From positions 1-64,000 of the forward strand of contig NZ_JAEINV010000012.1 in NCBI RefSeq assembly GCF_016342705.1: a stretch of 64,000 nucleotides of DNA. The letters run 5' to 3'. This document shows positions 2,626 through 33,140 of the stretch, piece after piece. How positions within the stretch are numbered: the stretch's first letter is position 1; every line of letters starts with the position of its first letter. Made by a program: the position numbers and the translations under genes. Origin of the DNA: Lutibacter sp. (lineage in GTDB: Bacteria > Bacteroidota > Bacteroidia > Flavobacteriales > Flavobacteriaceae). Under the pieces are notes generated by a model. That model was given only the letters and a program-made list of their open reading frames with translations. It made no database searches and was not told where the DNA came from.

Positions 2626-3675
2626 GTGAATATACACGAAAAATATATAAAACGTTGCATACAATTGGCAAAAAGTGGTTTGGGAACCACATATCCTAAT
2701 CCAATGGTTGGCAGTGTAATAGTTTTAAATGATAAAATTATTGGTGAAGGCTGGCATAAAAAGGCAGGAGAACCGCATGCTGAAGTGCACGCAATAAACT
2801 CGGTAAAGGAAAAAAACCTGTTGAAAAAGGCAACTATTTATGTAAGTTTAGAGCCTTGTTCGCATTATGGGAAAACACCGCCGTGCGCAAATTTAATTGT
2901 TGAAAGTGGTATTAAAAAAGTAGTTATTGGCATTGTAGATAGCAATAGTAAAGTGAGTGGAAAAGGAGTAAAACATTTAATAGAAAACGGTTGTGATGTA
3001 GCGGTTGGAATTTTAGAAAAAGAGTGTTTTAATTTGAATAAACGATTTTTTACGTTTCATAAATACAAACGACCATTTGTTATTTTGAAATGGGCAGAAA
3101 CCACAGATGGTTTTATTGATAAAATTAGAACTGAAAACTCGGATAATTCTCCAAATTGGATTTCTAATACTTATTCTCAGCAATTAGTTCATAAAATGAG
3201 AGCTGAAGAACAAGCAATTTTAGTAGGAACAAACACAGCTTTAAATGATAATCCTAGTTTAACAGTTAGAAATTGGACAGGAGAAAACCCAATACGAATT
3301 GTTTTAGATAGAAGCACTAAAATTCCGAAAGCATATAATTTATTAAATGGAAACACCAAAACCATTGTTTTTTCTGAAGTAAAACATAATATTGATTCTG
3401 AAAAAAATGTAATTTTTGAACGGATTGATTTCAATAAAAATGTCACAGAACAAGTGTGTGAAGTTTTATATAATTATGAAATTCAATCGGTAATTATAGA
3501 AGGAGGGAAGCAAACTTTACAAAGTTTTATAGATGCTAATTTATGGGATGAAGCTTTTGTTTTTATTGGAGATGTTACATTTAATGAAGGGTTGTCAGCT
3601 CCCAACATTAAAAAAGCACCATTTAAAACGGTGGTAATTTTAAATGATACTTTAAAAGTTTTTAAAAACTATTAG
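2626..3675 (+). CDS. ribD: bifunctional riboflavin biosynthesis protein RibD (deaminase/reductase)
   Basis: Carries out the second and third steps of riboflavin synthesis: deamination of the pyrimidine intermediate and reduction of its ribosyl side chain. The N-terminal deaminase domain shows the zinc site HAEVHAI and PCSHYGKTPPC, and the C-terminal reductase domain contains the WAETTDGFIDK and VGTNTALNDNPSLTVR motifs. I prefer the GTG at 2626 (fMet-NIHEKYIKRC), because family members begin here and a near-consensus promoter box (TATTTTTA, 2614-2621) ends four bases upstream. An in-frame ATG at 2608 would add six residues. The stop touches that of the convergent asparaginase-like gene. Confidence 0.93.
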   Translation: MNIHEKYIKRCIQLAKSGLGTTYPNPMVGSVIVLNDKIIGEGWHKKAGEPHAEVHAINSVKEKNLLKKATIYVSLEPCSHYGKTPPCANLIVESGIKKVVIGIVDSNSKVSGKGVKHLIENGCDVAVGILEKECFNLNKRFFTFHKYKRPFVILKWAETTDGFIDKIRTENSDNSPNWISNTYSQQLVHKMRAEEQAILVGTNTALNDNPSLTVRNWTGENPIRIVLDRSTKIPKAYNLLNGNTKTIVFSEVKHNIDSEKNVIFERIDFNKNVTEQVCEVLYNYEIQSVIIEGGKQTLQSFIDANLWDEAFVFIGDVTFNEGLSAPNIKKAPFKTVVILNDTLKVFKNY

Positions 3676-14983: not shown

Positions 14984-15484
14984 TTATGTGAAAATTATTT
15001 GCGTTCTGTCACCATCACACATTTCATAAAATTCTCCAATGGTTATTATATCAGAAACTTCATCAGACAAGTCTTCTTTTTTTAACTTAAACATATCTAC
15101 AGCTAATTTACAGGCATAAATTTCGCCTCCACCAGCAGTAATCATTTCTAAAAATTCATCAACAGGTGGCATTCCTAATGCATCCATTTGTTTACGCATC
15201 ATACTTGAAACTGCAGATTCAACTCCAGGTAATCCACCAAGCATGGTTGGAAAAGGTATTCCACCAGGCATTCTCATTGCAGGATTTCCAGTAGTAGCTG
15301 TATGTAAATGATTCATTGCTTTTTTAGTAATACCATCTAATCCAAAAAATGTAAAAAATACTTTGGTTTCTATACCTTCCATTACGGCACCATTTGCCAT
15401 AACTAAACTAGCATAAACATCTTCTAAACTTCCTTTGGCACATATTAAGCAAACTTTTTCTAAAGGTTTTTTTTCTGTACTCAT
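14984..15484 (-). CDS. DsrE/DsrF-family sulfur-transfer protein (DsrE2-like)
   Basis: A 166-residue soluble protein of the DsrE/F/H fold, which carries sulfur as a cysteine persulfide. The likely carrier is Cys125 in GGGEIYACKLAVDMF, the conserved position of the DsrE2 branch. Cys12 and Cys15 form a further CLIC pair near the N-terminus, and there is Cys156. A Met/Gly/Pro-rich middle (GNPAMRMPGGIPFP) is also typical of this branch. It is the last gene of the sqr-dsrC-dsrE operon (40-base gap). It probably accepts persulfide sulfur released by SQR or a rhodanese and hands it to the DsrC-like protein; this is inferred from context. Confidence 0.85.
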   Translation of the reverse strand: MSTEKKPLEKVCLICAKGSLEDVYASLVMANGAVMEGIETKVFFTFFGLDGITKKAMNHLHTATTGNPAMRMPGGIPFPTMLGGLPGVESAVSSMMRKQMDALGMPPVDEFLEMITAGGGEIYACKLAVDMFKLKKEDLSDEVSDIITIGEFYEMCDGDRTQIIFT

Positions 15485-15524: not shown

Positions 15525-15836
15525 TTAAATACAACTAGTTGGTTTTGGTATTCCTGCAATTTTAGATGAAAATTTTAATGGTCCTTTTGGAAATAAAACA
15601 TATAATTGTTTTACATCTACAATTCCTGATTTTCCAACACTTCTAATAGTTAAAGCTTCTTTTGCTAAAGTTTTTTCACGTAAATAATTGATAACTTCAA
15701 AATGTTTTGGTGTTAATTCAATTCCTATTTCCGTTGCAATTTCTTTTGCAATTTCTTCATTCCATTGATTCATATCATCTAAGTATCCGTCTTCTGAAAC
15801 GTTTACTGAAACTCCTGCTATAGTTTTTACTGACAT
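15525..15836 (-). CDS. tusE: DsrC/TusE-family sulfur carrier with a single cysteine
   Basis: A 103-residue DsrC/TusE-like protein. The family's flexible C-terminal arm is clear (LFPKGPLKFSSKIAGIPKPT-S-C-I) with the penultimate Cys102 that carries persulfide sulfur. The second cysteine of true DsrC, 11 residues earlier, is replaced by Ser91, and Cys102 is the only cysteine in the protein. It therefore cannot form the internal trisulfide used with DsrAB, and no dsrAB is present; it fits the TusE-like group of one-cysteine carriers. It sits 32 bases after sqr and 40 before dsrE, which suggests sulfur relay rather than tRNA thiolation alone. Confidence 0.9.
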   Translation of the reverse strand: MSVKTIAGVSVNVSEDGYLDDMNQWNEEIAKEIATEIGIELTPKHFEVINYLREKTLAKEALTIRSVGKSGIVDVKQLYVLFPKGPLKFSSKIAGIPKPTSCI

Positions 15837-15868: not shown

Positions 15869-17119
15869 CTATTTTGTTTCTGGTTTAATATCAAATACTT
15901 TTCCTTTAAAACTCATGTTTCTCGATACAAAAGGAATTGCAATTCCTTTTAAAAGCATATTCCAGTAAATCCAACGGAAAGCCATTTTCCCCCAATGATT
16001 TAATACACTTTCTTTTAATAATTTAAGCGGACCAAATTTTGCGAACGGAAAATTTCCATGAACTGGTTCGGTTACATAATTAAAATCAATTAATAACGCT
16101 TTGTTATTTCCTGTTTCAATAAAACAATTTGCGTGGCCATCAAATTCTTTTTTAAGAGGATAACCATCAATGTATAAAAGGATATTATCAGTTAATGTTT
16201 CTGCTTGAAAATGTGCTACAGAACCAGCTTTGGAGGCTGGAACATTAGTTGCATCTCCAATCACAAAAATATTTTCATGTGCTTTTGACTGTAAAGTATT
16301 GTGATCAGTTGGTATAAAATTTAAATCATCACCTAAACCAGATTTAGCAATAACTTCGTCACCCATATTGGTTGGAATAGTTATCAATAAATCGAACGGA
16401 ATCTCTCTTTCAGCATAATCTATAATTACTTTTTTATCATTATCGACACTTTCAATAGCAAAATCGGTTTCAATTTTTATGCCTTTATCTTTTAACAAAT
16501 AATTCAATGCAGTTGTACAAGTTGGTTTTGTGAAAGCGCCTGAAAGTGGCGTTACATAAGTAATTTCTACTTTATCTCTAATCCCTTTTTTACGGAAATA
16601 AGCATCAGCTAAAAATGAGAATTCTAATGGTGCAACAGGACATTTTATAGGCATTTCAGTGATATGTACCACTAATTTTCCACCTTCCCAATTTCTAAGT
16701 TTGTCTCTTAGGGCTAAAGCACCTTCATAGGTGTAAAAATCAAAAATATCTTTTTTCCATAAAGGACCAATTAATCCTGCGGTTTCTTCCGGAGCAATTT
16801 TAGATCCAGTTGCAACTATTAATACATCATAATATAAAGTTTCATCTTCTAATTGTACTTTGTTTTCTTCAGGAAAAATTTGTTCAATTTTCTTTTGAAT
16901 ATATACTACTTCTTTAGGAATAAATTTTTTTCCAACTTTTTTTACTTGTTTTTCAGTATAAATATCAAAAGGAAGAAATAAAAAACCAGGTTGGTAATAA
17001 TGTGTTTTATATTGATCAACAATAGTAATTTTCCATTGATCTTTATATAATTTATGTATTAAATGGTTTGCCATCATGGTTCCTGATGTGCCCGCACCTA
17101 AAATTATTAAGTTTTTCAT
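15869..17119 (-). CDS. sqr: sulfide:quinone oxidoreductase-like flavoprotein
   Basis: An FAD-dependent oxidoreductase of the SQR group, 416 residues, expected to oxidise sulfide at the membrane and reduce quinone. It has the N-terminal Rossmann motif IILGAGTSGTMMANHL, the second FAD motif IFVIGDATNVPASKAGS near 284-300, and cysteines at 160 (IKCPVAPLE, matching the catalytic cysteine of SQRs), 201 and 332. The C-terminal amphipathic helices suit membrane attachment. The frame is open to a GTG at 17237, but MKNLIILGAG at 17119 is the natural start and leaves two regulatory dyads upstream. It leads the operon with dsrC and dsrE. Whether sulfide is its real substrate is unproven. Confidence 0.82.
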   Translation of the reverse strand: MKNLIILGAGTSGTMMANHLIHKLYKDQWKITIVDQYKTHYYQPGFLFLPFDIYTEKQVKKVGKKFIPKEVVYIQKKIEQIFPEENKVQLEDETLYYDVLIVATGSKIAPEETAGLIGPLWKKDIFDFYTYEGALALRDKLRNWEGGKLVVHITEMPIKCPVAPLEFSFLADAYFRKKGIRDKVEITYVTPLSGAFTKPTCTTALNYLLKDKGIKIETDFAIESVDNDKKVIIDYAEREIPFDLLITIPTNMGDEVIAKSGLGDDLNFIPTDHNTLQSKAHENIFVIGDATNVPASKAGSVAHFQAETLTDNILLYIDGYPLKKEFDGHANCFIETGNNKALLIDFNYVTEPVHGNFPFAKFGPLKLLKESVLNHWGKMAFRWIYWNMLLKGIAIPFVSRNMSFKGKVFDIKPETK

Positions 17120-17186
17120 ATCTAGTACTTTAGTTTTAATTATTGCAATTAAAGACATTAAGTTAATTCCTTTAATTTTTAGTAAA

Positions 17187-17200
17187 GTTACTTTAGTCAC
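17187..17200. promoter_or_regulatory. GTnAC-N4-GTnAC dyad, proximal site of sqr
   Basis: GTTACTTTAGTCAC, about 75 bases upstream of the sqr start. It is one of four exact matches to a shared dyad found only at sulfur-island promoters in the regions inspected; probably a Crp/Fnr-type operator. Confidence 0.55.
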
Positions 17201-17234
17201 ATAATATTTAATATGATAAAAGTCAGTATGCAAT

Positions 17235-17248
17235 GTCACTTTAGTTAC
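17235..17248. promoter_or_regulatory. GTnAC-N4-GTnAC dyad, distal site of sqr
   Basis: GTCACTTTAGTTAC, 48 bases from the proximal site and between the divergent sqr and ligA genes. The core TTTA spacer is shared with the proximal site and with the 24502 site. Confidence 0.55.
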
Positions 17249-20412: not shown

Positions 20413-21066
20413 TTATATATTATCTATAATAATTCTATTTCTTCTAATTTTAATTTTCCCTTCGTTTTCTAGTATTTTTAATAATCTTGAAACTACTACG
20501 CGAGATGTGTGAATATCATCAGCAATTTCTTGATGAGTAATTATTAAAGTGTTGTTATTCATAATTTTAACTTTATCAGTTAAATATTTATGAAGTCTGT
20601 CATCTAGTTTCATAAAAGCTAAACTATCAATAGATTCTACCATTTCAATTAAACGCATATGGTAACTATCAATAATAAAATGCCTCCAAGATTTATATTT
20701 CACCAACCATTCTTCAATTCTTTCAACCGGCACAAAAATTCCTTCTGTTTCTTTTTCGGTAATACCTCTAAACATACTTTTTGTGCGGTTAATACAATTT
20801 ACAAAAGAAATGGCACAAGTATCACCTTTTTCAAGAAAGTACAATGCAATTTCCTCACCATTTTTATCTTCTCTTATAATTTTTACGGCCCCACATAAAA
20901 TTAAAGGAACATGAGACATTTTATCACCAATGTCAATTAATAATTCATTGGGTTTTATGGTTCGGAGGATTCCAATATTTACAATTTCATCTATTAGTTC
21001 TTTTTCAAAAATAAGTGAATAGTAATCTTTTAATTTTTCACGAATGATTTCTTTATCTGTAGTCAT
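20413..21066 (-). CDS. Crp/Fnr-family transcription regulator
   Basis: A 217-residue regulator with an N-terminal cyclic-nucleotide-type beta-barrel (about 25-125; NGEEIALYFLEKGDTCAIS in the roll), a dimer helix, and a C-terminal helix-turn-helix (HQEIADDIHTSRVVVSRLLK, near 177-196). There is no Fnr-like cysteine cluster at the N-terminus, so it is unlikely to be an iron-sulfur oxygen sensor. The recognition helix reads SRVVVSR, unlike Crp (RExxGR). It is a natural candidate for the GTnAC-N4-GTnAC dyads of the island. A terminator separates it from the upstream porin gene, so it has its own promoter. Confidence 0.88.
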   Translation of the reverse strand: MTTDKEIIREKLKDYYSLIFEKELIDEIVNIGILRTIKPNELLIDIGDKMSHVPLILCGAVKIIREDKNGEEIALYFLEKGDTCAISFVNCINRTKSMFRGITEKETEGIFVPVERIEEWLVKYKSWRHFIIDSYHMRLIEMVESIDSLAFMKLDDRLHKYLTDKVKIMNNNTLIITHQEIADDIHTSRVVVSRLLKILENEGKIKIRRNRIIIDNI

Positions 21067-21166: not shown

Positions 21167-22216
21167 TTAAAATTTAACTTGTAGTTGCATTAAAAGTGCG
21201 TCGTTATCTATAGTTGTAGCTGTTTCAATTTTATTTTGATAATTGATTTGTAATCTTGTATTATCATTAAAGAAATAGTTAACACCTAAAGTCATCATTT
21301 CTTGATACCCAATTTTTTTAATATCTAAATCTTGATCAAAAGTTTCATATTTAAATACTGGTTGCCATTGTTTATTTATATCATATGAAACCATTACATA
21401 GGCACCATCTCTTTTATTACCTAATTCTAATGGAGTTGATCCACAACCACCTCCGGCAGCTCTATTATAATCACCTTCATCATAAATATATTCACCAGTT
21501 ACATTAAACTTGTTATAATTTAATGCAATTTCAGCTCCATATGAAGTTCTGTCAGTTTCGTTATTATTAGGGTATCCATATCTAAAGCTACCTCCAATTG
21601 TCATAAAGTCAAGAATTTTATACGATGCACGTCCAATAATATCTTTTTTAGTATTATTATCAGCAACTCCTAATCCTCTTCCATTCATTAATGCCAATGC
21701 ATAACGGAATTTAGTTTTGCTAGTTCCACCTAATAACATTAAACCCATATCTCTTTGTGGTGCAACTAATTGGTCTGAAACAATAGCTCTATCAATAGTA
21801 GTTAAACTATGACAAGGAGTGTTAACTTCTAAACCAAATGGTTGTTTAAATGAACCAACAGAAACTTTTGCCCACTCATATTTATCATAAGTAATAAATG
21901 CATCCATTAAATACACGTTACCATCAGAAGATATAAAATCACTAGTTTCTAACATTACATAGTATGAAAAGGTTCTGTTAACTCTACCACGAACACCTAA
22001 ACGAGCTCTTTTAAATTTAAAAGAACTAGTTTCATCATCCGTAAAATGAGAGTCATATTCTGGTTGAATATATCCAAAAAACGTTGTGCTACTAGTTGAT
22101 GGAACTCCACTTGTACCTGCAGTTGCAGGAGCGTCACCTTCGCAACCTTGTGCAAATGAAGAAGCATAAGAAAGTGTAAAGAAGATTGTAAAAAGGAAAA
22201 TTATTTTTGTTTTCAT
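21167..22216 (-). CDS. OprP/OprO-type outer-membrane porin
   Basis: A 349-residue outer-membrane beta-barrel of the phosphate-selective porin O/P family. A signal peptide (about 1-22, cut after SFAQ) is followed by alternating strands with aromatic girdles, such as FFGYIQPEYDSHF and RARLGVRGRVNRTFSYYVML, and it ends with a strand closing on aromatic Phe (LLMQLQVKF). Proteins of this family pass anions, so an oxyanion such as thiosulfate or sulfite is a plausible cargo here. It lies 122 bases after the tandem rhodanese gene, with an inverted repeat in between, and probably shares its transcript. Confidence 0.82.
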   Translation of the reverse strand: MKTKIIFLFTIFFTLSYASSFAQGCEGDAPATAGTSGVPSTSSTTFFGYIQPEYDSHFTDDETSSFKFKRARLGVRGRVNRTFSYYVMLETSDFISSDGNVYLMDAFITYDKYEWAKVSVGSFKQPFGLEVNTPCHSLTTIDRAIVSDQLVAPQRDMGLMLLGGTSKTKFRYALALMNGRGLGVADNNTKKDIIGRASYKILDFMTIGGSFRYGYPNNNETDRTSYGAEIALNYNKFNVTGEYIYDEGDYNRAAGGGCGSTPLELGNKRDGAYVMVSYDINKQWQPVFKYETFDQDLDIKKIGYQEMMTLGVNYFFNDNTRLQINYQNKIETATTIDNDALLMQLQVKF

Positions 22217-22338: not shown

Positions 22339-23331
22339 TTAGTTTCCAAATGGTAAATTTTTTGAAACACCAGTACTCCATTTGTTAGAAGTCCATGCAG
22401 TATTAGAATTGTACATTCCATTCATTCCAAATGATAAGCTGTATGCATCATACCCTAAAACTCTTAACCAAGCAGTAACAACAGCTGAAGTTTGACCAGT
22501 ATAGCAGTAAGTAACGACTTTTGCATTTGGATCTAAAGCTAATACACTATTATCAGCTATTGATAATGGTTGAATTCTGTACGCACCTTTAATGTGTCCA
22601 AATCCTGTATAGTCAGCTGAACCAAAGAAATTATTTACAAAATAGTTGCTTGGAGCTGCTAATACATCACTTCCTTTAACAGTTTTAAATCCTGCAGCAA
22701 CAACTTCTTCAACACGCTTTTTAAGAATTGCTTCACCTGTTGTAGATAAGCTAGTAAATGCAGGTTTTGAAAATACTTGATTTGCTGGAGCAGCATCATA
22801 TGACCAGTTTGAATTTCCTTCTGCAATATTTCCAATATTATTATTCCAAGAACCTGCAGTTGTTGAATTCCATCCTGACATTCCCCATTTTAAAGCTTGG
22901 GTGTTTTTAAAGCCATACATACGCATTAAGGCAGTTGCATAACAAGCCGTTTGCCCTGTGTAGCAAACTACTAAAACAGGTTTAGCTCCAGCTGCAGTGC
23001 CTTCTGCTAAAATATTTGCAAAAACTACATTTTTTGCGCCTGCAATATGGCTAGTTGCATAATCAGCAGCACTTCTAATGTCTATAATATAATATTTGGC
23101 TAAAAAAGCAGGTAAATCAGCTTCTGTAGCTGGAGGAGCTGCAACAAATTTTGCTCCATCAACACTAGTATCTACATTAGGTAAATCTAAATTTGCCGAT
23201 AGCATATAATCTGCCATTAAAGTTTGTGCAGGAGTTGATTCTATTAAAGTATCATCACCTTTATCGCATGAGGTTAAAAATAGAGTAGGAATTAAAAAAA
23301 GTCCAATTAATATTAATGATATTTTTTTCAT
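22339..23331 (-). CDS. tandem rhodanese lipoprotein
   Basis: An exported 330-residue protein with two rhodanese domains, which transfer sulfane sulfur through a cysteine persulfide. The lipobox LTSC puts the lipid on Cys22. Domain 1 (about 70-155) has DIRSAADYATSHIAGAKNV and the active loop VVCYTGQTA (Cys123). Domain 2 (about 220-310) has GHIKGAYRIQP and the loop TYCYTGQTS (Cys276). Both cysteines are present, so both domains may be active, and the CYTGQ loop is the type often found in periplasmic rhodaneses. It follows a second tandem rhodanese (44-base gap) and precedes a porin. Substrates could be thiosulfate or polysulfide. Confidence 0.88.
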   Translation of the reverse strand: MKKISLILIGLFLIPTLFLTSCDKGDDTLIESTPAQTLMADYMLSANLDLPNVDTSVDGAKFVAAPPATEADLPAFLAKYYIIDIRSAADYATSHIAGAKNVVFANILAEGTAAGAKPVLVVCYTGQTACYATALMRMYGFKNTQALKWGMSGWNSTTAGSWNNNIGNIAEGNSNWSYDAAPANQVFSKPAFTSLSTTGEAILKKRVEEVVAAGFKTVKGSDVLAAPSNYFVNNFFGSADYTGFGHIKGAYRIQPLSIADNSVLALDPNAKVVTYCYTGQTSAVVTAWLRVLGYDAYSLSFGMNGMYNSNTAWTSNKWSTGVSKNLPFGN

Positions 23332-23375: not shown

Positions 23376-24362
23376 TTATTCTACTACTGGGTAATTATTA
23401 ATTTCTTTTGCTGAAAATCCGTTCCAACCTTTACTATTTAAATTGGTATTCATATAGCTATTTGCACCATAGCCTAAATTGTATACATCATAACCTAAAA
23501 TTTGTAGATAAGCTACAGCATAAGCAGCTGATTGACCAGTTTCGCAACTTACCAATATTTTTTTATCAATAGGTAATGTGTATAAATCTGAAGTTGAAGA
23601 AAGTGAAGTTCCTGGTTGGTATCTTAAAGCTCCTGGTACGTGACCAAAATTGTATTTTTCTTCACTTACGTAGTTAGCTGTATAAAAGTCGCTAGGGTTT
23701 TCAAAAACCACTTCAGCTTTTACAATAAAATCTTTGTAAGGTTTTGCAAATGCCTCTTTTAAACGAGCTTTTAAAATATCTTTTCCTTCAATTTTCCCCG
23801 TTGTGATAGTTGGTGTAGTACTTTTTTCTGGAAGAGGATTAGTTGTAGTTTCTAATTTGTCTGCAAATGCATCGGATGAATTTTTCTTCCAAATGTTTGT
23901 TGCAAATTCATCAGCCCAAGAACTCATTCCCCATTTTAAGTTATATACATTATTGTATCCTGCTAAACGTAATAAACCTGCATAATAAGCTGCTGATTGA
24001 CCAGAGTAACATACAATTGTTATTTTGTCATAATTAGCAGGTATAATTTTTGTTTCAAAGTAATTTAATAATTCTGGACCTTCTACATTTTCTGCATTTT
24101 GGATATGTCCATAAGCATACCAGTCCTCACTTCTAATATCTAAAACCAGATATTTTTTGTTTTTAACATTTTCTTTAATTTCTGGAGCTAAAATTATTGC
24201 TGGAGCCAATTCACTATTAATGAAATTTCCATTGGCTTCTAAATATTGAACTAATAGTTCAAATTCAGTTGGATCATTTGTTTGTTGTTGGTTACTTTTA
24301 AAACTACTTAATAAAATGGTAGCTACAAAAAGTAGTGTTAAATATGATGTTAATTTTCTCAT
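23376..24362 (-). CDS. exported tandem rhodanese
   Basis: A 328-residue paralogue of the downstream gene. An N-terminal signal segment (about 4-20) is followed by two rhodanese domains: domain 1 (about 65-150) with DIRSEDWYAYGHIQNAENV and the loop IVCYSGQSA (Cys118), and domain 2 (about 215-305) with GHVPGALRYQP and the loop VSCETGQSA (Cys273). The signal lacks a clear lipobox cysteine, so unlike its neighbour it is probably soluble in the periplasm. It is first in the rhodanese-rhodanese-porin unit. A TAATTTTG box at 24429-24436 and a GTTAC dyad at 24502-24515 lie upstream. Confidence 0.88.
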   Translation of the reverse strand: MRKLTSYLTLLFVATILLSSFKSNQQQTNDPTEFELLVQYLEANGNFINSELAPAIILAPEIKENVKNKKYLVLDIRSEDWYAYGHIQNAENVEGPELLNYFETKIIPANYDKITIVCYSGQSAAYYAGLLRLAGYNNVYNLKWGMSSWADEFATNIWKKNSSDAFADKLETTTNPLPEKSTTPTITTGKIEGKDILKARLKEAFAKPYKDFIVKAEVVFENPSDFYTANYVSEEKYNFGHVPGALRYQPGTSLSSTSDLYTLPIDKKILVSCETGQSAAYAVAYLQILGYDVYNLGYGANSYMNTNLNSKGWNGFSAKEINNYPVVE

Positions 24363-24722: not shown

Positions 24723-25340
24723 CTAACAACCACCTTCGGCGGGTTTTTTCTTCTTTTTTTGTACAGTAATTACTTTTTTAGGAGCAACAATTTTTACTGG
24801 AATAGGTTTTGGCTCAATTGAAGCCTTTTTAATGGATTCTTCAATAAATCCTTTTATATCTGCATATGATTTTTCAATCGTATCATTTTTTGAAATTAGC
24901 TTATTTTGATAATAACTATTTTCAATAGCAGCCATTTTTATATTAGTATAGCCAAGTTGATTTAACATTAAAAAAGGAATAGTAACATCATTTGTATTTG
25001 AACCATATAAAATAATTGTTTTATTCTCAGTTTTTAAGTTATTTAATAAATTGGTATTATAATCATTTAAAATTTCTGGAGTATATATGTTTATAGCATT
25101 TTCAATATGTCCTTTTTCAAATTCAAATTGATTTCTAACATCAATTAATGCTAAATTTTCTCCATTTAACTCTTCTAATGTTACAAAATAATTATTATTT
25201 GTAATATTTTCTAAAGTGCTTTTAGTATTATTAGTATATAAATGCTTTGGCTTTTTATATGATAAAACAGCTATTAAAACAACTAATATTGTTATTACCG
25301 CCGCAATTGATATTCTTTTAGTTTTTTCTAATTCTTTCAT
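24723..25340 (-). CDS. membrane-anchored rhodanese-like protein with terminal EGGC tail (B)
   Basis: A 205-residue protein with one N-terminal membrane helix (about 10-27, positive side inside, so the rest should be periplasmic) and a rhodanese fold (about 50-150; ALIDVRNQFEFEKGHIENAINI). The active loop, IILYGSNTNDVTI, has no cysteine, so normal rhodanese chemistry is impossible. The only cysteine in the whole protein is the last residue, Cys205, at the end of a lysine-rich tail (PKKVITVQKKKKKPAEGGC). The preceding gene product has the same tail. It is the last gene of the molybdoenzyme operon. A periplasmic sulfur or metal-binding arm is possible; the function is unknown. Confidence 0.8.
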   Translation of the reverse strand: MKELEKTKRISIAAVITILVVLIAVLSYKKPKHLYTNNTKSTLENITNNNYFVTLEELNGENLALIDVRNQFEFEKGHIENAINIYTPEILNDYNTNLLNNLKTENKTIILYGSNTNDVTIPFLMLNQLGYTNIKMAAIENSYYQNKLISKNDTIEKSYADIKGFIEESIKKASIEPKPIPVKIVAPKKVITVQKKKKKPAEGGC

Positions 25341-25434
25341 CTGTTTAAATTTTTTGTTTTATTGATCAGATGGAATTTGCATACTTTTAATTAATTGTAA
25401 GTAATGCATATTTCATAATTAATAATTTAATAAA

Positions 25435-26100
25435 TTAACAACCTCCTTCAGCTGGTTTTTTCTTTTTCTTTTCAACCGTAATTACTTTTTTAGGGGCTGT
25501 TTTTTTAACTACAACTGGTTTGTCAACTTTAAATTGTTCTGGATAAGCTACTCCAAAAAACATACTTGCAGCTTTTCTAGTGCTGTAAAGTTCAAAATCT
25601 AAAGCTGTCATATTTTCACTTGGTTTGGTTGGATTTATAATTGTTTTGTACCATTCATTTAATCCTCCTTTTAAAACCTTTAAATTTTTATAGTTTAGTC
25701 TACTGCATAAAAGCCACGCTTGATCTGCATTAAAATTATCGTTTGAAAATAATATTACATTGTATTGGCTTTGGTTTAAATATGGAATAGAATCTTCATC
25801 TAATAATTTTTTTAAAGGAATATTTATAGCATTTGGCAGTGAATATTTTGCATATTCTGCTTCATCTCTAACATCAATTAAAATAAATGATGGGTCTTGA
25901 TTCACTAATTTTTCAGCTAATAAGTCTGTTGAAATATATCTTTCAGGACTTATTGCTTTGCTTAATAATTCTTCAGGATTAATACCTTCATGTTTTTGAT
26001 ATTTAGGTAATAATACCAAACCTGCAGCAAGAATAACAAGTATTAGTGCTAAAATTGTGTATCTAAAAGTTAAAACTTTTGCTACTTTTCTATTAACCAT
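25435..26100 (-). CDS. membrane-anchored rhodanese-like protein with terminal EGGC tail (A)
   Basis: A 221-residue protein with one membrane helix (about 12-31, positive N-terminus) and a rhodanese fold (about 55-155; ILIDVRDEAEYAKYSLPNAI). The expected active-site cysteine is replaced: the loop reads VILFSNDNFNADQ. Cysteines are Cys132, inside the domain, and Cys221, the last residue. The tail PKKVITVEKKKKKPAEGGC is nearly identical to that of the next gene, whereas the domains are clearly diverged, so the tail is under its own constraint. It lies between the YeeE pair and its paralogue. A role in passing sulfur to or from the transporter is a guess. Confidence 0.8.
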   Translation of the reverse strand: MVNRKVAKVLTFRYTILALILVILAAGLVLLPKYQKHEGINPEELLSKAISPERYISTDLLAEKLVNQDPSFILIDVRDEAEYAKYSLPNAINIPLKKLLDEDSIPYLNQSQYNVILFSNDNFNADQAWLLCSRLNYKNLKVLKGGLNEWYKTIINPTKPSENMTALDFELYSTRKAASMFFGVAYPEQFKVDKPVVVKKTAPKKVITVEKKKKKPAEGGC

Positions 26101-26115
26101 TTTTATGTTATTTAA

Positions 26116-26706
26116 TTAGTAAAATATTTTTTTTACTCTTTTTTTAATTTGATCTGAAAGTGCAAAAATTATAATTGCTGCTATTGTAAAAACAAAAACA
26201 AACCAATATCTATTTACACCAAAAGTATCCATTAATGTTATGTTTCCTTCAAAACTTCCTTCATAAATTGGTTGGAATAGGAAATATAATTCTGAAAAAA
26301 TGAATACACCTATCATAATACCAATTACATAAATAATTGCATCAACTTTTCCTATAGCTACGGCGCATAAACTTGTTCCTGGGCAAAAGCCTCCAGCAAC
26401 AAATCCAACTCCCATTATTGCTCCACCAATAATTGCACCCCATAAATATGTTGGATGAACATATAAGGAGCCCATATCTAAATATCCTAAATAATCCATA
26501 TATAAAATACCTATTAATGATACCAATGCAGCAGTGAAAAATACTTTTAATACTGCAAAATCATAACCATAAAATACGCCAGCTAATTTTCTTGAGGAAG
26601 AAAAACCTGAAGCTTCTAACACAAATCCGAAAGCAATACCTATAATTATTGCTATTATATTACTCCATTCGTAAGGAATTACACCATTTGGAATTAAAGG
26701 TCCCAT
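26116..26706 (-). CDS. YeeE/YedE-family half-transporter, second subunit
   Basis: A 196-residue membrane protein, half the size of full YeeE (TsuA) thiosulfate transporters. It has about five hydrophobic helices and the conserved GFVAGGFCPGTSLCAVAIGK segment with Cys108 and Cys114. In YeeE such cysteines line the path and hydrogen-bond thiosulfate. It pairs with the preceding 179-residue half, as in PmpA/PmpB systems. Import of thiosulfate or of sulfane sulfur is the likely task; lying beside rhodanese genes supports this. Confidence 0.88.
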   Translation of the reverse strand: MGPLIPNGVIPYEWSNIIAIIIGIAFGFVLEASGFSSSRKLAGVFYGYDFAVLKVFFTAALVSLIGILYMDYLGYLDMGSLYVHPTYLWGAIIGGAIMGVGFVAGGFCPGTSLCAVAIGKVDAIIYVIGIMIGVFIFSELYFLFQPIYEGSFEGNITLMDTFGVNRYWFVFVFTIAAIIIFALSDQIKKRVKKIFY

Positions 26707-26727: not shown

Positions 26728-27267
26728 TTAAATCCAATTTTTTCTAAAGAAATAGGCTACTAAAAATGCGGTCCCAAAGATGGCTAACATAGTTATAAAA
26801 CCTCCAGTTGAAAGAACAGCCATTCCGCTTAAAGCAGCGCCACTTGTACAACCTCTTGCTATTTGAGCTCCTAACCCAAATAGTATTCCACCACCTAAGG
26901 CAAATATTAATCTGCGTTTTCTAGTAATTTTTGGTGAGTGTTGCACTCTCCATCCAATTCTACCTGAAAGACCACCAGAAATAAAGGCACCGATTAAAAC
27001 TCCTAAAGTTTCAAAAACTAACCAGTTATTCATAGGTGATTCGTTATCTTTTATAAACTTACTGTAATATTCATTTTGCTCGGCATGGGAATGTGTTACA
27101 GTATTTACTATAGTTACAACACTACTTTTCATGGCACCACTAGCACCTAATCCTCTTCCAGTCATGTAAAAAGTGAATAGAATTAATATTCCAAGTAGAA
27201 ATCCTCCAAAATATGGATTCCAATATATATGACTGTTTTTATTTGGGTCTATTTTTAGTTTTTTCAT
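26728..27267 (-). CDS. YeeE/YedE-family half-transporter, first subunit
   Basis: A 179-residue membrane protein with the YeeE signature ALGGGILFGLGAQIARGCTS and Cys140 in ARGCTSGAALSG, and about four to five hydrophobic helices. It has a loop of about 40 hydrophilic residues (60-80) between early helices. It lies 1 base after the NrfD gene and 21 bases before the second half-subunit, so the two are made together and probably form one pore. Confidence 0.88.
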   Translation of the reverse strand: MKKLKIDPNKNSHIYWNPYFGGFLLGILILFTFYMTGRGLGASGAMKSSVVTIVNTVTHSHAEQNEYYSKFIKDNESPMNNWLVFETLGVLIGAFISGGLSGRIGWRVQHSPKITRKRRLIFALGGGILFGLGAQIARGCTSGAALSGMAVLSTGGFITMLAIFGTAFLVAYFFRKNWI

Positions 27268-27268
27268 T

Positions 27269-28210
27269 TTAATATAGATAACGTGTTATTTGTCCAGCTT
27301 CCACAATTACAAATCTTAATACTAATCCTCCAATTAATACTAAAAGTGCAGGAACTGCAACAGGAACTTTAAAGCCAATAAGTTCAATTAATTCTAATAT
27401 GGCAGGGACAATTAATCCCAGGATAATTACAAAGCCAAAGAACATTAAAGTAAATTCTCCTCCAACTAATAATTGCATTGCTTCTAATTGAACTTCTGAT
27501 CCAGCGTACATTCCCATTAGCATATGTACAATTAAGCCTAATTCTAAAACAATTAGGGCTAAATCTATTTTGCCAAATAAATGTTTTTCTTTTTTAGTTT
27601 TTGCTAATAGAATTATTGTAGCTGCACCAGTTGATAACCCAGAAACTAAAAATAATGGGCCTAAAATTGCATTGTTCCATAATGGTCTTGCATTAAAAGC
27701 AGATAATAAAATACCTGTATAAACTCCTAAAATAATTGATAACGGAATTAAAGCATATGCCATATTTTTTCTATTATCTTTTAAGAACTTTTCAAAGTTA
27801 TTTAAAAACTCAAATTTTAATTTCCATTTTGGGAATATTTCAGAGTAATAGCTAAAAACCCATAAGAATGATATTGGTGTAATAATTAACAATACCCAAG
27901 CACCCCAACTCATTGGAGATTCTATTCTAATAGTTGTGTATAATCTCCAAAAGTAAAATTTGTGAGTTAAATCATAAAATAAAGCTAACAAACCTAATGT
28001 TAATGCTATTGGCGATATTATTGATGCATACTTAACGGCAGCTGGGTAATCTTTTTCTTTTCCCAAAACTGTAATCAAGCTTGCAAAAAATAATAAACCA
28101 GCAGCTAAACCTCCTAAAAATAAATAGACTGATATTGGCCAATGCCATATTTCTAATGAAGGATCTATATGTGGTAAGTTTCTTCCACTTGTAAATAATT
28201 CTTCTTGCAT
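27269..28210 (-). CDS. nrfD: NrfD/PsrC-type membrane subunit
   Basis: A 313-residue inner-membrane protein of the NrfD/PsrC family, with eight to nine hydrophobic helices, that exchanges electrons between quinones and a periplasmic iron-sulfur subunit. It begins with the family features IWHWPISVYLFLGGLAAGLL near residues 21-40 and contains SPMSWGAWVLLIITPISFLW. It forms the third subunit of the molybdoenzyme complex (A-B-C order in transcription) and lies 11 bases after the iron-sulfur gene. Confidence 0.92.
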   Translation of the reverse strand: MQEELFTSGRNLPHIDPSLEIWHWPISVYLFLGGLAAGLLFFASLITVLGKEKDYPAAVKYASIISPIALTLGLLALFYDLTHKFYFWRLYTTIRIESPMSWGAWVLLIITPISFLWVFSYYSEIFPKWKLKFEFLNNFEKFLKDNRKNMAYALIPLSIILGVYTGILLSAFNARPLWNNAILGPLFLVSGLSTGAATIILLAKTKKEKHLFGKIDLALIVLELGLIVHMLMGMYAGSEVQLEAMQLLVGGEFTLMFFGFVIILGLIVPAILELIELIGFKVPVAVPALLVLIGGLVLRFVIVEAGQITRYLY

Positions 28211-28221: not shown

Positions 28222-28755
28222 TTAAATTAGATAATAAACGTTAGGTTTTGTTCCAGCTTCTGGAGCCAATGTTTTATGTTTTCTGTTCTTTAATAATTCT
28301 GAAACTTCACTGTTTGGATTGTCTAAATCACCAAAGTACATGCACTTTGTTGGACAAACAGAAACGCAAGCAGGAAGTTGTCCTTTTTCTAATCTATGAT
28401 GACAGAAAGTACATTTGTCTACATAACCATCAGGATGTTGGTAACGGGCATCGTACGGGCAAGATTCTATACAAGCACCACAACCAATACATTCGTCACC
28501 AGTAACTAAAACAATTCCATTAACTAATTGATGACTTGCACCAGTTGGACAACAGCGCACACAAGGAGCGTTTTCACAATGATTGCAACGTTCAGATTTT
28601 AGTTCTAATTCTATATTAGGATATGCACCATTTACGGTTTCAGTAATCCAATCTCTACAGTACCCAATTGGTACATCATTTTCAGTTTGACAAGCAACAA
28701 CGCAGTCGCTACAACCAACACATTTTAATGTGTCTATAACCATTGCATATCTCAT
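28222..28755 (-). CDS. four-cluster [4Fe-4S] electron-transfer subunit (PsrB/PhsB type)
   Basis: A 177-residue ferredoxin-like subunit with four cysteine groups: CVGCSDCVVACQ, CNHCENAPCVRCCP, CIGCGACIESCP and CTFCHHRLEKGQLPACVSVCP, i.e. four [4Fe-4S] clusters. It carries electrons between the molybdenum subunit and NrfD. It has no signal of its own, so it is exported by riding with the TAT-signal-bearing catalytic subunit. Its start codon overlaps the stop of the catalytic gene by four bases. Confidence 0.95.
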   Translation of the reverse strand: MRYAMVIDTLKCVGCSDCVVACQTENDVPIGYCRDWITETVNGAYPNIELELKSERCNHCENAPCVRCCPTGASHQLVNGIVLVTGDECIGCGACIESCPYDARYQHPDGYVDKCTFCHHRLEKGQLPACVSVCPTKCMYFGDLDNPNSEVSELLKNRKHKTLAPEAGTKPNVYYLI

Positions 28756-30995
28756 ATCTCAGTATTTTTATGTGGGTTTTCGGTTAAAATTGTTACAAAA
28801 TTTCCTCTCATTCCAGTTCCACCCATTATTGGGTCAATAGCCACTGATGAAATTAATTCTGTATCGTTGATTCCTTTACCATAAGCACGGCTCAATTTTT
28901 TTTCTTGATGACCAAAACCGTGTACCATATAAACAGAATCCCAACGAACTCGTTCTGTTACTCTCACTTTTATTGAAAAGGTTGAAATAATATCATCTTG
29001 ATTTTTCAACCATACTTCCTGACCCGTTTTTAATCCAAGTATTCTTGAAACTTTAGGGTTCACCCATAAGTTGTTTTCACTCTTTAAATCGTTTAAATTT
29101 GGATTGTTTGCCGTTCTGCTAAAAGTATGCATTGGCGCTCTACCGTAATTTAATCTGTAAAAACCTTGTTGAGGTTCTGGATGTTTTGTATAATTTGGTA
29201 ATGGATCAAATCCTAAATTTTTTAATTCATTAGAATATAATTCTATTTTTCCCGAATGAGTTGGAAATTCATGAGGACCAGTTTCATTTAAATACATGGA
29301 TCCAGATTTACGAGGGAAGTTTTTAACTCCAATTTTTTCCATTTCTTCTAAAGAAGTTCCCATTTGACCTAATTGCCATTCAATTACTTCTTTATAATCC
29401 GTATAATTAAAATATTCGCCAACACCCATTCTTTCTCCAATTTCTTTGGCAATCCACCAAGATGGTTTAGAATCATATTTAGGAGCTACAGCCGGAATTC
29501 TTATCGCAATTGATGGTTCTCTATTTGTTGCAGATCTAATTTCATCATAACGTTCTAAATAGGTACATTCTGGTAAAACAACATCAGCATAACCTGTAAC
29601 ATCCATTGGCATTGTATCAATAACAACCATAAAATCTAAAGCTTCTATAGCCTCTTCCAATAATTTTTTATTTGGAATAGATTTTGTGATGTTTGTACCA
29701 GCAACCATTAATGCTTTTACAGGATATTTATTATCTTCACTAGGTATTGCACATTTTATTACTTCTGTTGTAATACCCATTTGAGCTAATGGATATTTAG
29801 CTCCAATTTCTTTCCATCCCCATTTTGGGTGTGGATATTCTGGAGCTGGAAATTCAGGTACTTTTATACTTTCTTTAAAGTAGAAACCACCTCTGCGTCC
29901 CCAAGAACCTAACAAAGCATTTAAAATGGCCATGGCTCTAGCTCGTTGAGAATCATCTCCATACCATACTACGTGGCGACCAGGATGAATTATTACTGCA
30001 GGAGATGCATCTGCCATCTCTCTTGCCGTTTTTCTAATTTCTTCTGGTTTAATTCCTGTAATTCCGTATGCCCATTCTGGTGTGAATGTACTTACATGGT
30101 CTTTTAATTCATTAAATCCAGTAGCATATTTTTCAATATATTCTTTATCGTAAATATTTTCATTTATTAAAACATTCATCCAAGAAAGCATTAAAGCTAT
30201 GTCGGTTGCTGGTTTAATAGCTAACCAATATTTAGATTTACTGGCAGCTGTAGAAAAACGTGGATCTACAGTTATAATGGTAGCACCGTTATCAATAGCG
30301 TCTGACATTTCTTGTACTTGGCTATTGTGCATGTTTTCTCCAATATGCGAACCAATTAATACTAAACATTTTGTATCTCTAATATCGGTTGGTTCAGGGG
30401 ATCCAATCCAAGATCCAAAAGTTAAATTAAATCCGGTTTCACGAGGACCTCTACATTGTGCATAAGCTGGCTCTGCAATTGTATCAGAACCAAATGCTTG
30501 GTACAAATGCTCTAAATGTTTTCCAGGAGCACCATGTTTAATAAGTGCTAAAGATTCTGCACCAAATTCTTCTTTAATTCCTTTAAATTTAGCAGCAATT
30601 AAATCTAATGCTTCGTCCCAACTTGCCTCTCTAAAGGTTTGTTCACCATTAACAGTTGTTCTAATTAAAGGTGTTTTTAATCGGTCTTCATCGTTGTACA
30701 TTCCTACACCGCCAGTTCCTCTTGGACATAATCGACCATAACAATGTGGGTCATTTTCATTTCCAATTATCTTTTTAACAGCACCTTCTTCATCTGTATA
30801 AGTCCAAGCAGCGCACTTCCAAAAACAAACTTCGCAATAGGTTGCAGTTCTTTTAAAAGTTTTCGCAACATTTTCTTTTACCAATTCATCTATGTATGAA
30901 CTAGCACCAAACATATTTAATGCTGTGGTTGTTGCTGCTACACCTCCCAAACCTAAAGCAGAAATTTTTATAAATTTTCTTCTTGAAGTAGTCAT
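28752..30995 (-). CDS. TAT-exported molybdopterin oxidoreductase (polysulfide/thiosulfate reductase-like)
   Basis: A 747-residue molybdenum bis-MGD enzyme of the DMSO-reductase family. The twin-arginine signal SRRKFIK is at residues 4-10. A [4Fe-4S] site is formed by Cys54, Cys57, Cys61 and Cys90. The expected molybdenum ligand is Cys181 in YAQCRGPRETGF. Together with the four-cluster and NrfD subunits this is the PsrABC/PhsABC arrangement. Candidate substrates are polysulfide, thiosulfate, tetrathionate or, run the other way, sulfite or sulfide oxidation (SoeA is related); sequence alone does not choose. A perfect GTAAC-N4-GTTAC dyad lies 87 bases upstream. Confidence 0.88.
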   Translation of the reverse strand: MTTSRRKFIKISALGLGGVAATTTALNMFGASSYIDELVKENVAKTFKRTATYCEVCFWKCAAWTYTDEEGAVKKIIGNENDPHCYGRLCPRGTGGVGMYNDEDRLKTPLIRTTVNGEQTFREASWDEALDLIAAKFKGIKEEFGAESLALIKHGAPGKHLEHLYQAFGSDTIAEPAYAQCRGPRETGFNLTFGSWIGSPEPTDIRDTKCLVLIGSHIGENMHNSQVQEMSDAIDNGATIITVDPRFSTAASKSKYWLAIKPATDIALMLSWMNVLINENIYDKEYIEKYATGFNELKDHVSTFTPEWAYGITGIKPEEIRKTAREMADASPAVIIHPGRHVVWYGDDSQRARAMAILNALLGSWGRRGGFYFKESIKVPEFPAPEYPHPKWGWKEIGAKYPLAQMGITTEVIKCAIPSEDNKYPVKALMVAGTNITKSIPNKKLLEEAIEALDFMVVIDTMPMDVTGYADVVLPECTYLERYDEIRSATNREPSIAIRIPAVAPKYDSKPSWWIAKEIGERMGVGEYFNYTDYKEVIEWQLGQMGTSLEEMEKIGVKNFPRKSGSMYLNETGPHEFPTHSGKIELYSNELKNLGFDPLPNYTKHPEPQQGFYRLNYGRAPMHTFSRTANNPNLNDLKSENNLWVNPKVSRILGLKTGQEVWLKNQDDIISTFSIKVRVTERVRWDSVYMVHGFGHQEKKLSRAYGKGINDTELISSVAIDPIMGGTGMRGNFVTILTENPHKNTEI

Positions 30996-31250: not shown

Positions 31251-33140
31251 ATGAAAAATAAAAGATTTTTGTATTTTTTTAGTGCTGTTTTAATAATATT
31301 ATTAATTACTTTTTTATTAACCAAAGGAGATAAAAATTCTACTATTAATAATGCGGATGATTATGTTAAAATAGATGCTATTGAAAAGGAATCTTGTTTA
31401 AATTGTCATATAAATACAACAGGGTATTCATCCTATCATAACCCAGATTTAATTGGTTGTGCTAGTTGTCATTTGGGAAATACTTCTTCAAATGATAAAG
31501 CTGAATCTCATAAAGGGATGATTTTAATTCCTGGAAATTTGGTTGATGCCAAAGAAACCTGCGGAAAATGTCACCCGAATGAATTAACTAAAATTGAAAA
31601 TTCATTAATGACTACCAATAGTGGTTTGGTTGCGGTTGATAAATATATTTTTGACGAAGCAGATTCTCCAAATCATCAATATCATATTAAATTACTTAAA
31701 AATTCGGCATCTGATAAGCATTTGAGAGATTTATGTGCCAATTGCCATTTAGGCGCTGAGAAAAAAGAATTTGGACACATAACGCAATTAAGTAGAGGTG
31801 GAGGTTGTAATGCGTGTCATTTAAATTATAGCGAAGAAGCTAAAAAAGAGTTGGAAGCGTATTTAAAATCAGATAAAAAGATATTACCAAAATTTCATCC
31901 TGCAACCAATATTTTTGTGAAAAATGAACATTGTTTTGGATGTCATAGCCGATCAAGCAGGATTTCAACCAATTATGAAGGCTGGCAAGAAACCCTGTTA
32001 GAAGAAAATGATATTATAGGTAAAAAAGGTTTTAAAACTTTTGAAGATAAACGCATTTATAAGTTTATTGAAGAAGATGTGCATCATGCAAAAGGATTAT
32101 TATGTGTAGATTGCCATTCTTCTCATGAAGTAATGGGCGATGGAAAAAAATATACCCACGAAGAGCAAGCTGTAAAATTACAATGTGCCGATTGTCATTT
32201 TAAAGAAAAGCCAAATACCATTCCGTATAGTAAATTAGATGCAGAAAGTTTGTTGGTTTTTTTACATAGAGATTATAAACATTCCGATAAGCAAATAATT
32301 GCAGTTAAAAAAGATGGGCATCCATTGGTAAATACTTTTATAGATTCTATTGGAAACGCTTTTTTAATTGGTAAAAAAGATGGAAAAACACACAAATTAA
32401 ATCCTCAATCTGAAGTTTGTTCAAGAGATAATGCGCATAAAAATGTGAGTTGTTCAATGTGTCATTCTTCATGGACTTCCCGTTGTATTGGTTGTCATAA
32501 TCAGTTTGATAAAAATGAACCACGTGCTTTTGATTTACTAGATAAAAAGTTTGTAAAAGGACAGTGGAAGGAACATGTTGCAGAATTTTCTTCATCATTA
32601 CCAGCAATGGGAGTTCGAGAGAATTCAGATGGGAAACATATTGAACCAGCAGTTCCTGGAATGATTTTAACAATTGATAAAGGGAGTTATGCTGGAAAAG
32701 AAATTGGAACTGATGTTTCTTTTCACAGGTTGTACGCTCCTAATTCTCCACATACAACAATATCAAAAGCTAGAGATTGCAAAAGTTGTCATACAAATTC
32801 AGCAACGTTAGGTTACGGAAAAGGAACACTTAAATACATAATTCAAAAAGGAAATGGTACTTGGGAATTTACACCAGAATATGCCCAAAATCCGAATGAT
32901 AATTTACCGGAAGATGCTTGGGTTCCATTTTTAAAACCTGTTAAAAAGGGAGTTGTAAATTCAACACGGACTGATTTTAGACCTTTTACCGTAATAGAAC
33001 AACAACAATTATTATTGGTTGGTGCTTGTTTACAATGCCATAAAGAAGATTCTAAAATAATGCAACAAAGTTTAGTTAATGGTATTCAGCCACTATTAAA
33101 AAAACTCAATAAAAAGTGTGTTTTGCCAACTTGGAATTAA
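31251..33140 (+). CDS. dodecahaem c-type cytochrome
   Basis: A 629-residue exported cytochrome with an N-terminal membrane helix (about 6-24) and twelve CxxCH haem-binding motifs: CLNCH, CASCH, CGKCH, CANCH, CNACH, CFGCH, CVDCH, CADCH, CSMCH, CIGCH, CKSCH and CLQCH. Ten are in the first two thirds; a haem-poor stretch of about 100 residues precedes the last two. It is divergent from the molybdoenzyme operon, with a shared control region, so it probably serves the same electron chain. I do not recognise the exact family. It may be an enzyme (octahaem sulfur or nitrogen reductases are distant parallels) or just an electron conduit. Confidence 0.88.
   Translation: MKNKRFLYFFSAVLIILLITFLLTKGDKNSTINNADDYVKIDAIEKESCLNCHINTTGYSSYHNPDLIGCASCHLGNTSSNDKAESHKGMILIPGNLVDAKETCGKCHPNELTKIENSLMTTNSGLVAVDKYIFDEADSPNHQYHIKLLKNSASDKHLRDLCANCHLGAEKKEFGHITQLSRGGGCNACHLNYSEEAKKELEAYLKSDKKILPKFHPATNIFVKNEHCFGCHSRSSRISTNYEGWQETLLEENDIIGKKGFKTFEDKRIYKFIEEDVHHAKGLLCVDCHSSHEVMGDGKKYTHEEQAVKLQCADCHFKEKPNTIPYSKLDAESLLVFLHRDYKHSDKQIIAVKKDGHPLVNTFIDSIGNAFLIGKKDGKTHKLNPQSEVCSRDNAHKNVSCSMCHSSWTSRCIGCHNQFDKNEPRAFDLLDKKFVKGQWKEHVAEFSSSLPAMGVRENSDGKHIEPAVPGMILTIDKGSYAGKEIGTDVSFHRLYAPNSPHTTISKARDCKSCHTNSATLGYGKGTLKYIIQKGNGTWEFTPEYAQNPNDNLPEDAWVPFLKPVKKGVVNSTRTDFRPFTVIEQQQLLLVGACLQCHKEDSKIMQQSLVNGIQPLLKKLNKKCVLPTWN

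Follow-up and report, generated by a model that had tools for sequence, protein, structure and literature searches.

Sulfur carriers of the DsrC/TusE type hold sulfur on a cysteine near the C-terminus of a mobile arm, are cytoplasmic and have a fold unrelated to rhodanese, while Sud works via a loop cysteine. In the periplasm, the cysteine in the C-terminal GGCGG of the carrier SoxY binds the sulfur substrate (PMC6067878), and Sud presents polysulfide to Psr in Wolinella (PMC2628731). A divergent SoxY adjoins the octaheme tetrathionate reductase gene (otr) in lucinid symbionts (PMC11237559). YeeD/TsuB is a sulfur-handling partner of YeeE/TsuA and forms one protein with YeeE in some bacteria (PMC11073785). 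YeeD is cytoplasmic and TusA-like, and it has been described as conceivable that SoxY hands sulfur over to a YeeE-type channel (PMC11582611). In Desulfurivibrio dismutans, Psr, periplasmic sulfurtransferases and YeeE have been proposed to move sulfur between them (PMC12142623). Here we analyse RhA and RhB, the products of two adjacent genes in a 64,000-nucleotide stretch of Lutibacter sp. DNA (NZ_JAEINV010000012.1, positions 1 to 64,000), called the window throughout, which lies within contig C7 of a 3.6 Mb genome with a completeness of 100. Both proteins have a rhodanese fold without the catalytic loop cysteine and end in a basic tail whose last residue is a cysteine. They are probably periplasmic, inner-membrane-tethered carriers of sulfane sulfur that use a SoxY-like swinging arm on a pseudo-rhodanese scaffold.

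The two genes are as follows.
25435..26100, minus strand: RhA, 221-aa membrane-anchored pseudo-rhodanese with a terminal EGGC (PF00581, 54.1 bits)
24723..25340, minus strand: RhB, 205-aa twin pseudo-rhodanese (PF00581, 52.9 bits)

Both scores exceed the cut-off of the Rhodanese family PF00581 (22.2 bits), and in both proteins a single hydrophobic helix at the N-terminus is followed by a rhodanese domain and then by the EGGC tail. The nearest solved structures of RhA are rhodaneses, by PDB sequence search and by Foldseek with the model; PDB 1qxn, which we take to be Sud of Wolinella, is among the sequence matches (E 0.0002). The AlphaFold2 (AF2) model of RhA has a mean predicted local distance difference test score (pLDDT) of 87.7, with helices at residues 4-29 and, as the last one, 166-181, and with the tail (182-221) at low confidence. 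The fold is that of a rhodanese and the catalytic loop cysteine is absent from both proteins, whose active loops read YGSNTND and FSNDNF. This confirmed the initial annotation, made from the DNA alone, of two adjacent single-helix rhodanese folds without a cysteine in the active loop. RhB has one cysteine, its last residue, and RhA has two, the other lying in the helix (LLCSRL).

The loop cysteine is also missing from most relatives (loci, genomes and contigs are numbered L, G and C, respectively). The catalytic position was Ser in 133, Ala in 21, Gly in 16, Tyr in 2, Cys in 2 and Asp in 1 of 175 RhA-type rows, a count that omits L145, L210, L211 and L254 and, like the tail-charge count below, pools loci found via the tail with loci found otherwise and includes the window protein twice. 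The two rows with Cys have the loops LLYCEDN and LLYCENN together with a KPKREGC tail (L170 and L175), and are possible intermediate forms. In some RhB of the Bacteroidales type (L039, L068 and L091), CxxC-like loops such as DHCGACGPW and DQCIACSAW replace the dead loop. Charge bias around the helix favoured an N-in/C-out orientation in 100 free proteins, was neutral in 20 and opposed it in 19; for proteins fused to a half-channel, described below, the numbers were 22, 6 and 4. RhA is predicted to be N-in/C-out, and we infer its periplasmic location from the helix and charge pattern only.

The tails occupy the following positions.
25438..25494, minus strand: RhA tail, PKKVITVEKKKKKPAEGGC, terminal Cys codon 25438-25440
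24726..24782, minus strand: RhB tail, PKKVITVQKKKKKPAEGGC, terminal Cys codon 24726-24728

Both read PKKVITV-x-KKKKKPAEGGC with the stop codon directly after Cys, so that the shared tail and the sole cysteine of the 205-residue protein were correctly described from the start. Among the best 120 of 796 RhA relatives and the best 120 of 859 RhB relatives, 236 of the 240 proteins ended in GGC and one in GSC; the remaining three (149, 188 and 206 aa) stop before or inside the tail. Searching 84,980 species genomes for KKKxxxEGGC followed by a stop codon yielded 113 stretches, of which 107 carried genes of the RhA/RhB operon, recognised by comparison with the window proteins after removal of the last 25 residues from the RhA and RhB queries. 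Four of the other six (L041, L049, L056 and L072) were tiny, chance-like frames, and two (L033 and L061) had similar tails that were cut or broken. The tail is not a product of chance, and its occurrence in unrelated contexts, which had been named at the outset as an argument against a carrier, was not borne out. The pattern covers TAA and TGA only, and the scan therefore misses tails that end in TAG. In the host genome the DNA pattern GARGGNGGNTGYTRA gave two matches (control pattern, one), one being the RhA gene; RhB went unmatched because its stop codon is TAG. The second match, also an EGGC followed by a stop, lies on contig C4 at 45187-45201. The sequences of all 113 stretches (L006-L118) were read, and taxonomy was taken from the 80 with titled records, among which operon-type carriers were mostly Flavobacteriaceae, with Cyclobacteriaceae and Bacteroidales. 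One metagenome-assembled genome of Neomarinimicrobiota (L011) carries the tail with a gene order identical up to RhA; the distribution outside the window's own phylum was surveyed through the EGGC form of the tail alone.

RhA and RhB belong to a row of minus-strand genes in the order MoA, FeS, NrfD, YeC, YeN, RhA, RhB, dRhd1, dRhd2, porin and Crp. Their nearest neighbours are listed here.
28752..30995, minus strand: MoA, PsrA/PhsA-like molybdenum enzyme with a twin-arginine translocation (Tat)-type leader, judged by eye (PDB 2vpw, 614 bits)
28222..28755, minus strand: PsrB-like iron-sulfur (Fe-S) electron-transfer subunit (PF13247, 83 bits)
27269..28210, minus strand: NrfD/PsrC-like membrane subunit (PF03916, 171 bits)
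26728..27267, minus strand: YeC, half-YeeE, C-terminal half, PmpA-like (PF04143, 86.8 bits, model positions 176-309)
26116..26706, minus strand: YeN, half-YeeE, which in class II forms one protein with RhA (PF04143, 59 bits, model positions 7-151)
23376..24362, minus strand: dRhd1, double rhodanese with a signal-like N-terminus, judged by eye, and loops CYSGQ and CETGQ (PF00581, 97.5 bits)
22339..23331, minus strand: dRhd2, double rhodanese with a lipoprotein-like leader, judged by eye, and loops CYTGQ (PF00581, 84.9 bits)

YeN and YeC match complementary halves of PF04143, both above its cut-off of 27. The GC motif of YeC aligns to TsuA/YeeE (PDB 8j4c/8k1r); a sequence search of YeN against PDB gave no match. 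The molybdenum catalytic, Fe-S and NrfD subunits are adjacent, as in PsrABC/PhsABC. The best PDB match of MoA, 2vpw, is a thiosulfate reductase; against the curated PhsA equivalog model, MoA scores 467.1 bits, below the cut-off of 694.

We also searched for relatives without selecting on the tail. Residues 1-185 of RhA matched 45 of 299 family genomes, 25 of them strongly (at least 119 bits; this number includes the host genome) and the other 20 weakly. Each of the 25 strong relatives ended in Cys or Cys-Gly; none of the five weak ones inspected (L144-L148) did. Across 395 phylum genomes, the YeC half-channel matched 65, and an RhA profile that included the tail matched 62. A rhodanese with Cys as its last or second last residue stands beside the YeeE pair in 64 of the 65 genomes that have half-YeeE, so that YeeE-side homologues lacking the cysteine, the first finding that the initial annotation named as telling against a carrier, did not materialise. 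One of the 64, G581, has a broken RhA frame (L204; 134 residues, then a break, 2956-3560), and its tail, KKKKREGC, is encoded in a different frame. The remaining genome, G621, has a distant YeeE pair (54 bits), beside which its 7-kb contig shows no rhodanese of this kind. Two weak extra YeC matches were obtained (G470:C34, 49.9 bits; G642:C15, 36.9 bits).

In the loci from the 185-residue, profile and YeC searches, 89 of 95 distinct RhA-type open reading frames had Cys last or second last, identical proteins having been merged by their last 100-120 residues. The other six comprised four rhodaneses with no YeeE in the stretch, a second rhodanese in L181 and the broken frame of L204. The 89 ended in GGC (52), EGC (20), GGCG (4), MGC (4), GGCA (2), GGCS (2), GLCS (2) and, once each, DGC, FQC and GGCT. 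A cysteine that stays fixed among changing neighbours is what one would expect of a reactive residue. The last 25 residues were net positive in all 174 rows with a terminal Cys (+1 to +12, mean +5.9). These data also bear on the notion that the terminal Cys and its carboxylate form a metal or haem ligand, for example for chelation of copper or zinc or for the cytochromes of the cluster. A terminal Cys is able to chelate metals, and multihaem cytochromes are often neighbours; however, one extra residue follows the Cys in 11 of the 89 frames (GGCG, GGCS, GGCT, GGCA and GLCS), so that a free carboxylate is not conserved, and the tail is cationic throughout, which makes this role very improbable.

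As a control, we took 30 rhodanese loci from ten half-YeeE genomes, with the proteins sorted by the analyst; locus L259 was outside the set of loci read. Eight of the 30 had a Cys in the last two positions, and these were six RhA-type proteins (L242, L243, L248, L250, L255 and L257) and two of the dRhd1 type, L247 (GGCG) and L241 (PGCE), the latter on another contig than the RhA locus. None of the 22 proteins without a terminal Cys was RhA-type; they were the window's dRhd1 (L240), a dRhd-like protein away from the RhA locus (L252) and 20 others.

The gene settings fall into three groups. In class I, as in the window, a free RhA follows the YeeE pair in a Psr-like operon. In class II, YeN, a helix, the rhodanese domain and the tail form one protein of ~397 aa. 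A class II query had 3181 relatives, from a search in which only the 7999 candidates sharing most words were scored, and the best 120 all had both Pfam domains and a GC end. The 38 class II loci, in which some genomes occur twice, contained a cytochrome b561 gene in 34 cases and an octaheme cytochrome gene in 30. The eight loci without the octaheme gene were stretches of at most 3.6 kb, one of which (L169) has NrfD instead. The octaheme protein of L213 scored 567.7 against the tetrathionate-reductase family cut-off of 375 and matched 1sp3 with 405 bits. Among the 37 unfused loci, 25 had Psr genes, six others were shorter than 3.7 kb and L197 was class II-like. In the third setting (L183, L187, L190, L198 and L205), a rhodanese gene stands directly before YeC and the pseudo-rhodanese ends in MGC or FQC; the loop of this rhodanese reads YCHIG in four loci (L183, L190, L198 and L205), and in L187 the protein has three rhodanese domains. 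A smallest set therefore comprises the terminal-Cys protein together with the YeeE pair and a catalytic rhodanese. L190 and L198 continue with a class-V aminotransferase gene, and L213 has another close to its fused gene.

The tail is not confined to pseudo-rhodaneses. In L022, L068, L091, L111 and L216, EGGC or GGCG also forms the end of dRhd1, a catalytic double rhodanese; its terminal-Cys tail in L022 has no lysine run, and in L216 IVKHKKKEVTGGCG ends all three genes, those of both twins and of dRhd1. The tails of twins also resemble each other within a locus. Over the last 12 residues in 90 loci, agreement was 0.909 within and 0.693 between loci, and 10,000 permutation runs, which ignore relatedness, reached a maximum of 0.729. 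Tails agreed more closely with the local twin than with its counterpart in the nearest relative (0.835; better in 44, worse in 6, tied in 40) or with the protein's own orthologue there (0.853). Identical tail residues had different codons in 315 of 982 cases (32%) within loci and in 46% between loci. Gene conversion as the sole cause of the similarity was set aside as insufficient given this 32%, and selection and gene conversion may both act on the tails.

A tail that is carried by different proteins (RhA, RhB and the double rhodanese) and is homogenised within a locus in the manner of sorting tags could also be a sorting, processing or degradation signal for dedicated machinery, its Cys being modified, for example by lipidation. 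Known C-terminal sorting signals include a hydrophobic helix, however, and reading the sequence revealed none after the tail. The EGGC tail is hardly found outside the sulfur locus (107 of 113 stretches), and the sequence next to the Cys is variable. The proteins that carry it are already equipped with a helix or a lipoprotein-like leader, and sorting would be superfluous for the half-YeeE fusions. We regard such a signal as highly improbable; for a lipidation or cleavage signal, the third counter-argument raised at the outset, the sequence evidence is the lack of a hydrophobic sorting helix after the tail. Adjacent twins with nearly identical tails would also suit a structural or redox tether, in which disulfides link the twins to each other, or a tail to the oxidoreductase, and no sulfur is carried. 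Against this, many phylum relatives show no twin in the stretch, just one free or fused RhA, and yet keep the Cys, and the Gly-Cys context with its basic approach resembles known carrier arms. A tether therefore appears unlikely.

Each test run on the sequences, exceptions aside, supports the sulfur-carrier reading. We propose that the rhodanese domain, having no catalytic Cys, would act as a docking scaffold and that the mobile, basic tail of ~40 residues ending in Gly-Cys would work like the GGCGG arm of SoxY. The terminal Cys would take up sulfur as a persulfide or thiosulfonate. The probable donors are the catalytic rhodaneses encoded nearby, a periplasmic sulfur-sulfur oxidoreductase, or both; the oxidoreductase would be PsrABC-like in the window and an octaheme tetrathionate reductase in the fused class. 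The loaded arm would swing to a partner; one such partner would be the YeeE half-channel pair, which would receive the sulfur at its periplasmic mouth and pass it to the cytoplasm. The arm may alternatively offer sulfur to Psr, as Sud does in Wolinella. The sulfur load on the terminal Cys, the direction of flow and the partner that touches the tail are what we infer here.

Several observations weigh against this proposal. In the five loci of the third setting (stretches of 6.4-6.6 kb), no Psr or octaheme gene was recognised within ~3 kb, and therefore no oxidoreductase is an obligate neighbour. In L140/L223 (G181) and L139/L224 (G223), both twins with the tail stand beside MoA-FeS-NrfD with no adjacent YeeE, and the whole G181 genome gave no YeC match; YeeE is therefore not an obligate partner either. 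A cysteine is retained at the loop position in 2 of 175 RhA-type rows (L170 and L175) and is found anywhere in the loop region in 12 of 178, identical proteins being merged here as above although the window protein again counts twice. The positive-inside counts are mixed in both free and fused proteins. Because the profile included tail columns, the tail-free evidence comes from the 185-residue RhA and YeC searches only. Given the codon differences, gene conversion may have contributed to the co-variation of twins. The model of a class II fusion has a mean pLDDT of 60 and falls under 50 over most of the channel, and no docking is readable from it. Finally, sulfide:quinone reductase and polysulfide reductase genes have been reported in Lutibacter profundi, yet thiosulfate gave no stimulation (PMC5219744). 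The original suggestion of a swinging-arm sulfur carrier serving the YeeE pair or the molybdoenzyme is partly supported, by the gene context and the near-universal Cys, and has to be refined in that the tail is not a partner of YeeE only.

Outside the genes nearest to RhA and RhB, the window contains the following features.
21167..22216, minus strand: porin, distantly ExtI-like (NF040900, 58.1 bits, cut-off 150)
20413..21066, minus strand: Crp/Fnr-type regulator, operon-linked in many relatives
31251..33140, plus strand: multihaem cytochrome with 12 CXXCH, ExtM-related, divergent from the operon (NF040943, 232.7 bits, cut-off 800)
15869..17239, minus strand: type III sulfide:quinone reductase (NF049943, 645.7 bits, cut-off 525)
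15525..15836, minus strand: DsrC/TusE-like carrier ending PTSCI (TIGR03342, 80.8 bits, cut-off 53.5)
14984..15484, minus strand: DsrE2-like carrier (NF047629, 98.1 bits, below the cut-off of 210)

The 12-haem cytochrome had no match in a PDB search. The sulfide:quinone reductase gene lies a few kb from the operon, and its model, NF049943, is a 'selenoprotein subtype' model. A 465-aa oxidoreductase-like protein at 60603-62000 ends in NCKCS, with Cys second last. Elsewhere in the host genome (L229, contig C3, ~350,000), next to a small rhodanese with a lipoprotein-like leader, is a protein of the metallo-beta-lactamase type that, judged by eye, has rhodanese-like segments and that we take to resemble a persulfide dioxygenase fusion. 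The sulfide:quinone reductase, DsrC/TusE-like, DsrE2-like and metallo-beta-lactamase-type genes would suit an oxidative or detoxifying route, and the PsrA-like enzyme would suit reduction.

The cytochrome and the porin that flank the operon are distant relatives of ExtM and ExtI, and the Geobacter ext cluster likewise has a rhodanese with the 12-haem ExtM (PMC5877670), which raises the idea of a selenite or tellurite reduction locus whose tails would act on selenium or tellurium instead of sulfur. However, both matches fall far under their equivalog cut-offs (232.7 of 800 and 58.1 of 150), MoA is closest to thiosulfate/polysulfide reductase, the fused class adjoins a cytochrome of the tetrathionate-reductase family, and the window itself holds sulfide:quinone reductase, DsrC-like and DsrE2-like genes. 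A selenium or tellurium function is accordingly quite improbable.

Returning to sulfane carriage, these proteins bear on the question of how sulfane sulfur travels from periplasmic enzymes through YeeE-type channels, and the fusion of a half-channel to a terminal-Cys domain makes the hand-over testable on one polypeptide. They are a case of a fold that sheds its catalytic Cys while a mobile arm keeps one. A terminal Gly-Cys pseudo-rhodanese beside half-YeeE also marks sulfur metabolism in a phylum in which SoxY exceeded its cut-off in 45 of 395 genomes. Only one of these 45 (G303) also has half-YeeE of this kind, and since 43 of the 45 come from one family, this near-exclusion may reflect lineage rather than function. 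Tentatively, and with clearly less confidence than in the carrier role itself, we suggest that pseudo-rhodaneses might form an independent mode of periplasmic sulfur carriage beside SoxYZ and Sud, in which the Cys has left the loop and sits at the end of a cationic arm. Such proteins could serve as YeeE feeders throughout Bacteroidota and in one or more other phyla, the arm entering the outer vestibule and passing sulfane to the pore cysteines, and could thereby couple catalytic rhodaneses, PsrABC or octaheme tetrathionate reductase to cytoplasmic sulfur carriers.

That nearly all relatives examined next to the YeeE channel retain the terminal Cys suggests a so far undescribed type of periplasmic sulfur-carrying arm. 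No description of terminal-Cys pseudo-rhodaneses was found in the literature searched, which was accessible in part and excluded supplements and most subscription journals. Like the window, Desulfurivibrio dismutans has Psr, rhodanese lipoproteins, a porin and YeeE; unlike it, no terminal-Cys pseudo-rhodanese is mentioned in the accessible part of that report (PMC12142623). The YTD cluster of sulfur disproportionators was set aside as a parallel, its YeeE-TusA-DsrE make-up being different as far as the accessible parts of its descriptions go (PMC9751629, PMC13047784). DsrC/TusE, the model chosen in the initial annotation, was replaced by SoxY as the nearest precedent. TIGR03342 was not among the NCBIfam matches of RhA or RhB, and the true DsrC/TusE relative is the separate window gene at 15525-15836. 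In contrast to Sud, RhA and RhB have no loop Cys and carry a terminal one instead. Like YeeD, RhA would be a dedicated sulfur-handling partner of YeeE; unlike YeeD, RhA is rhodanese-like and predicted to be periplasmic, and by analogy it may be the periplasmic counterpart of YeeD. The SoxY model PF13501 matched neither RhA nor RhB and no SoxY was found in the host genome, and RhA and RhB differ from SoxY in their rhodanese fold, their membrane anchor or half-YeeE fusion and their long, lysine-rich arm. The class II fusions nevertheless adjoin octaheme tetrathionate reductase as the divergent SoxY of lucinid symbionts does, and, as in SoxY, the Cys sits in a Gly-rich C-terminal arm, which in some RhA relatives ends in GGCG, GGCS, GGCT or GGCA.

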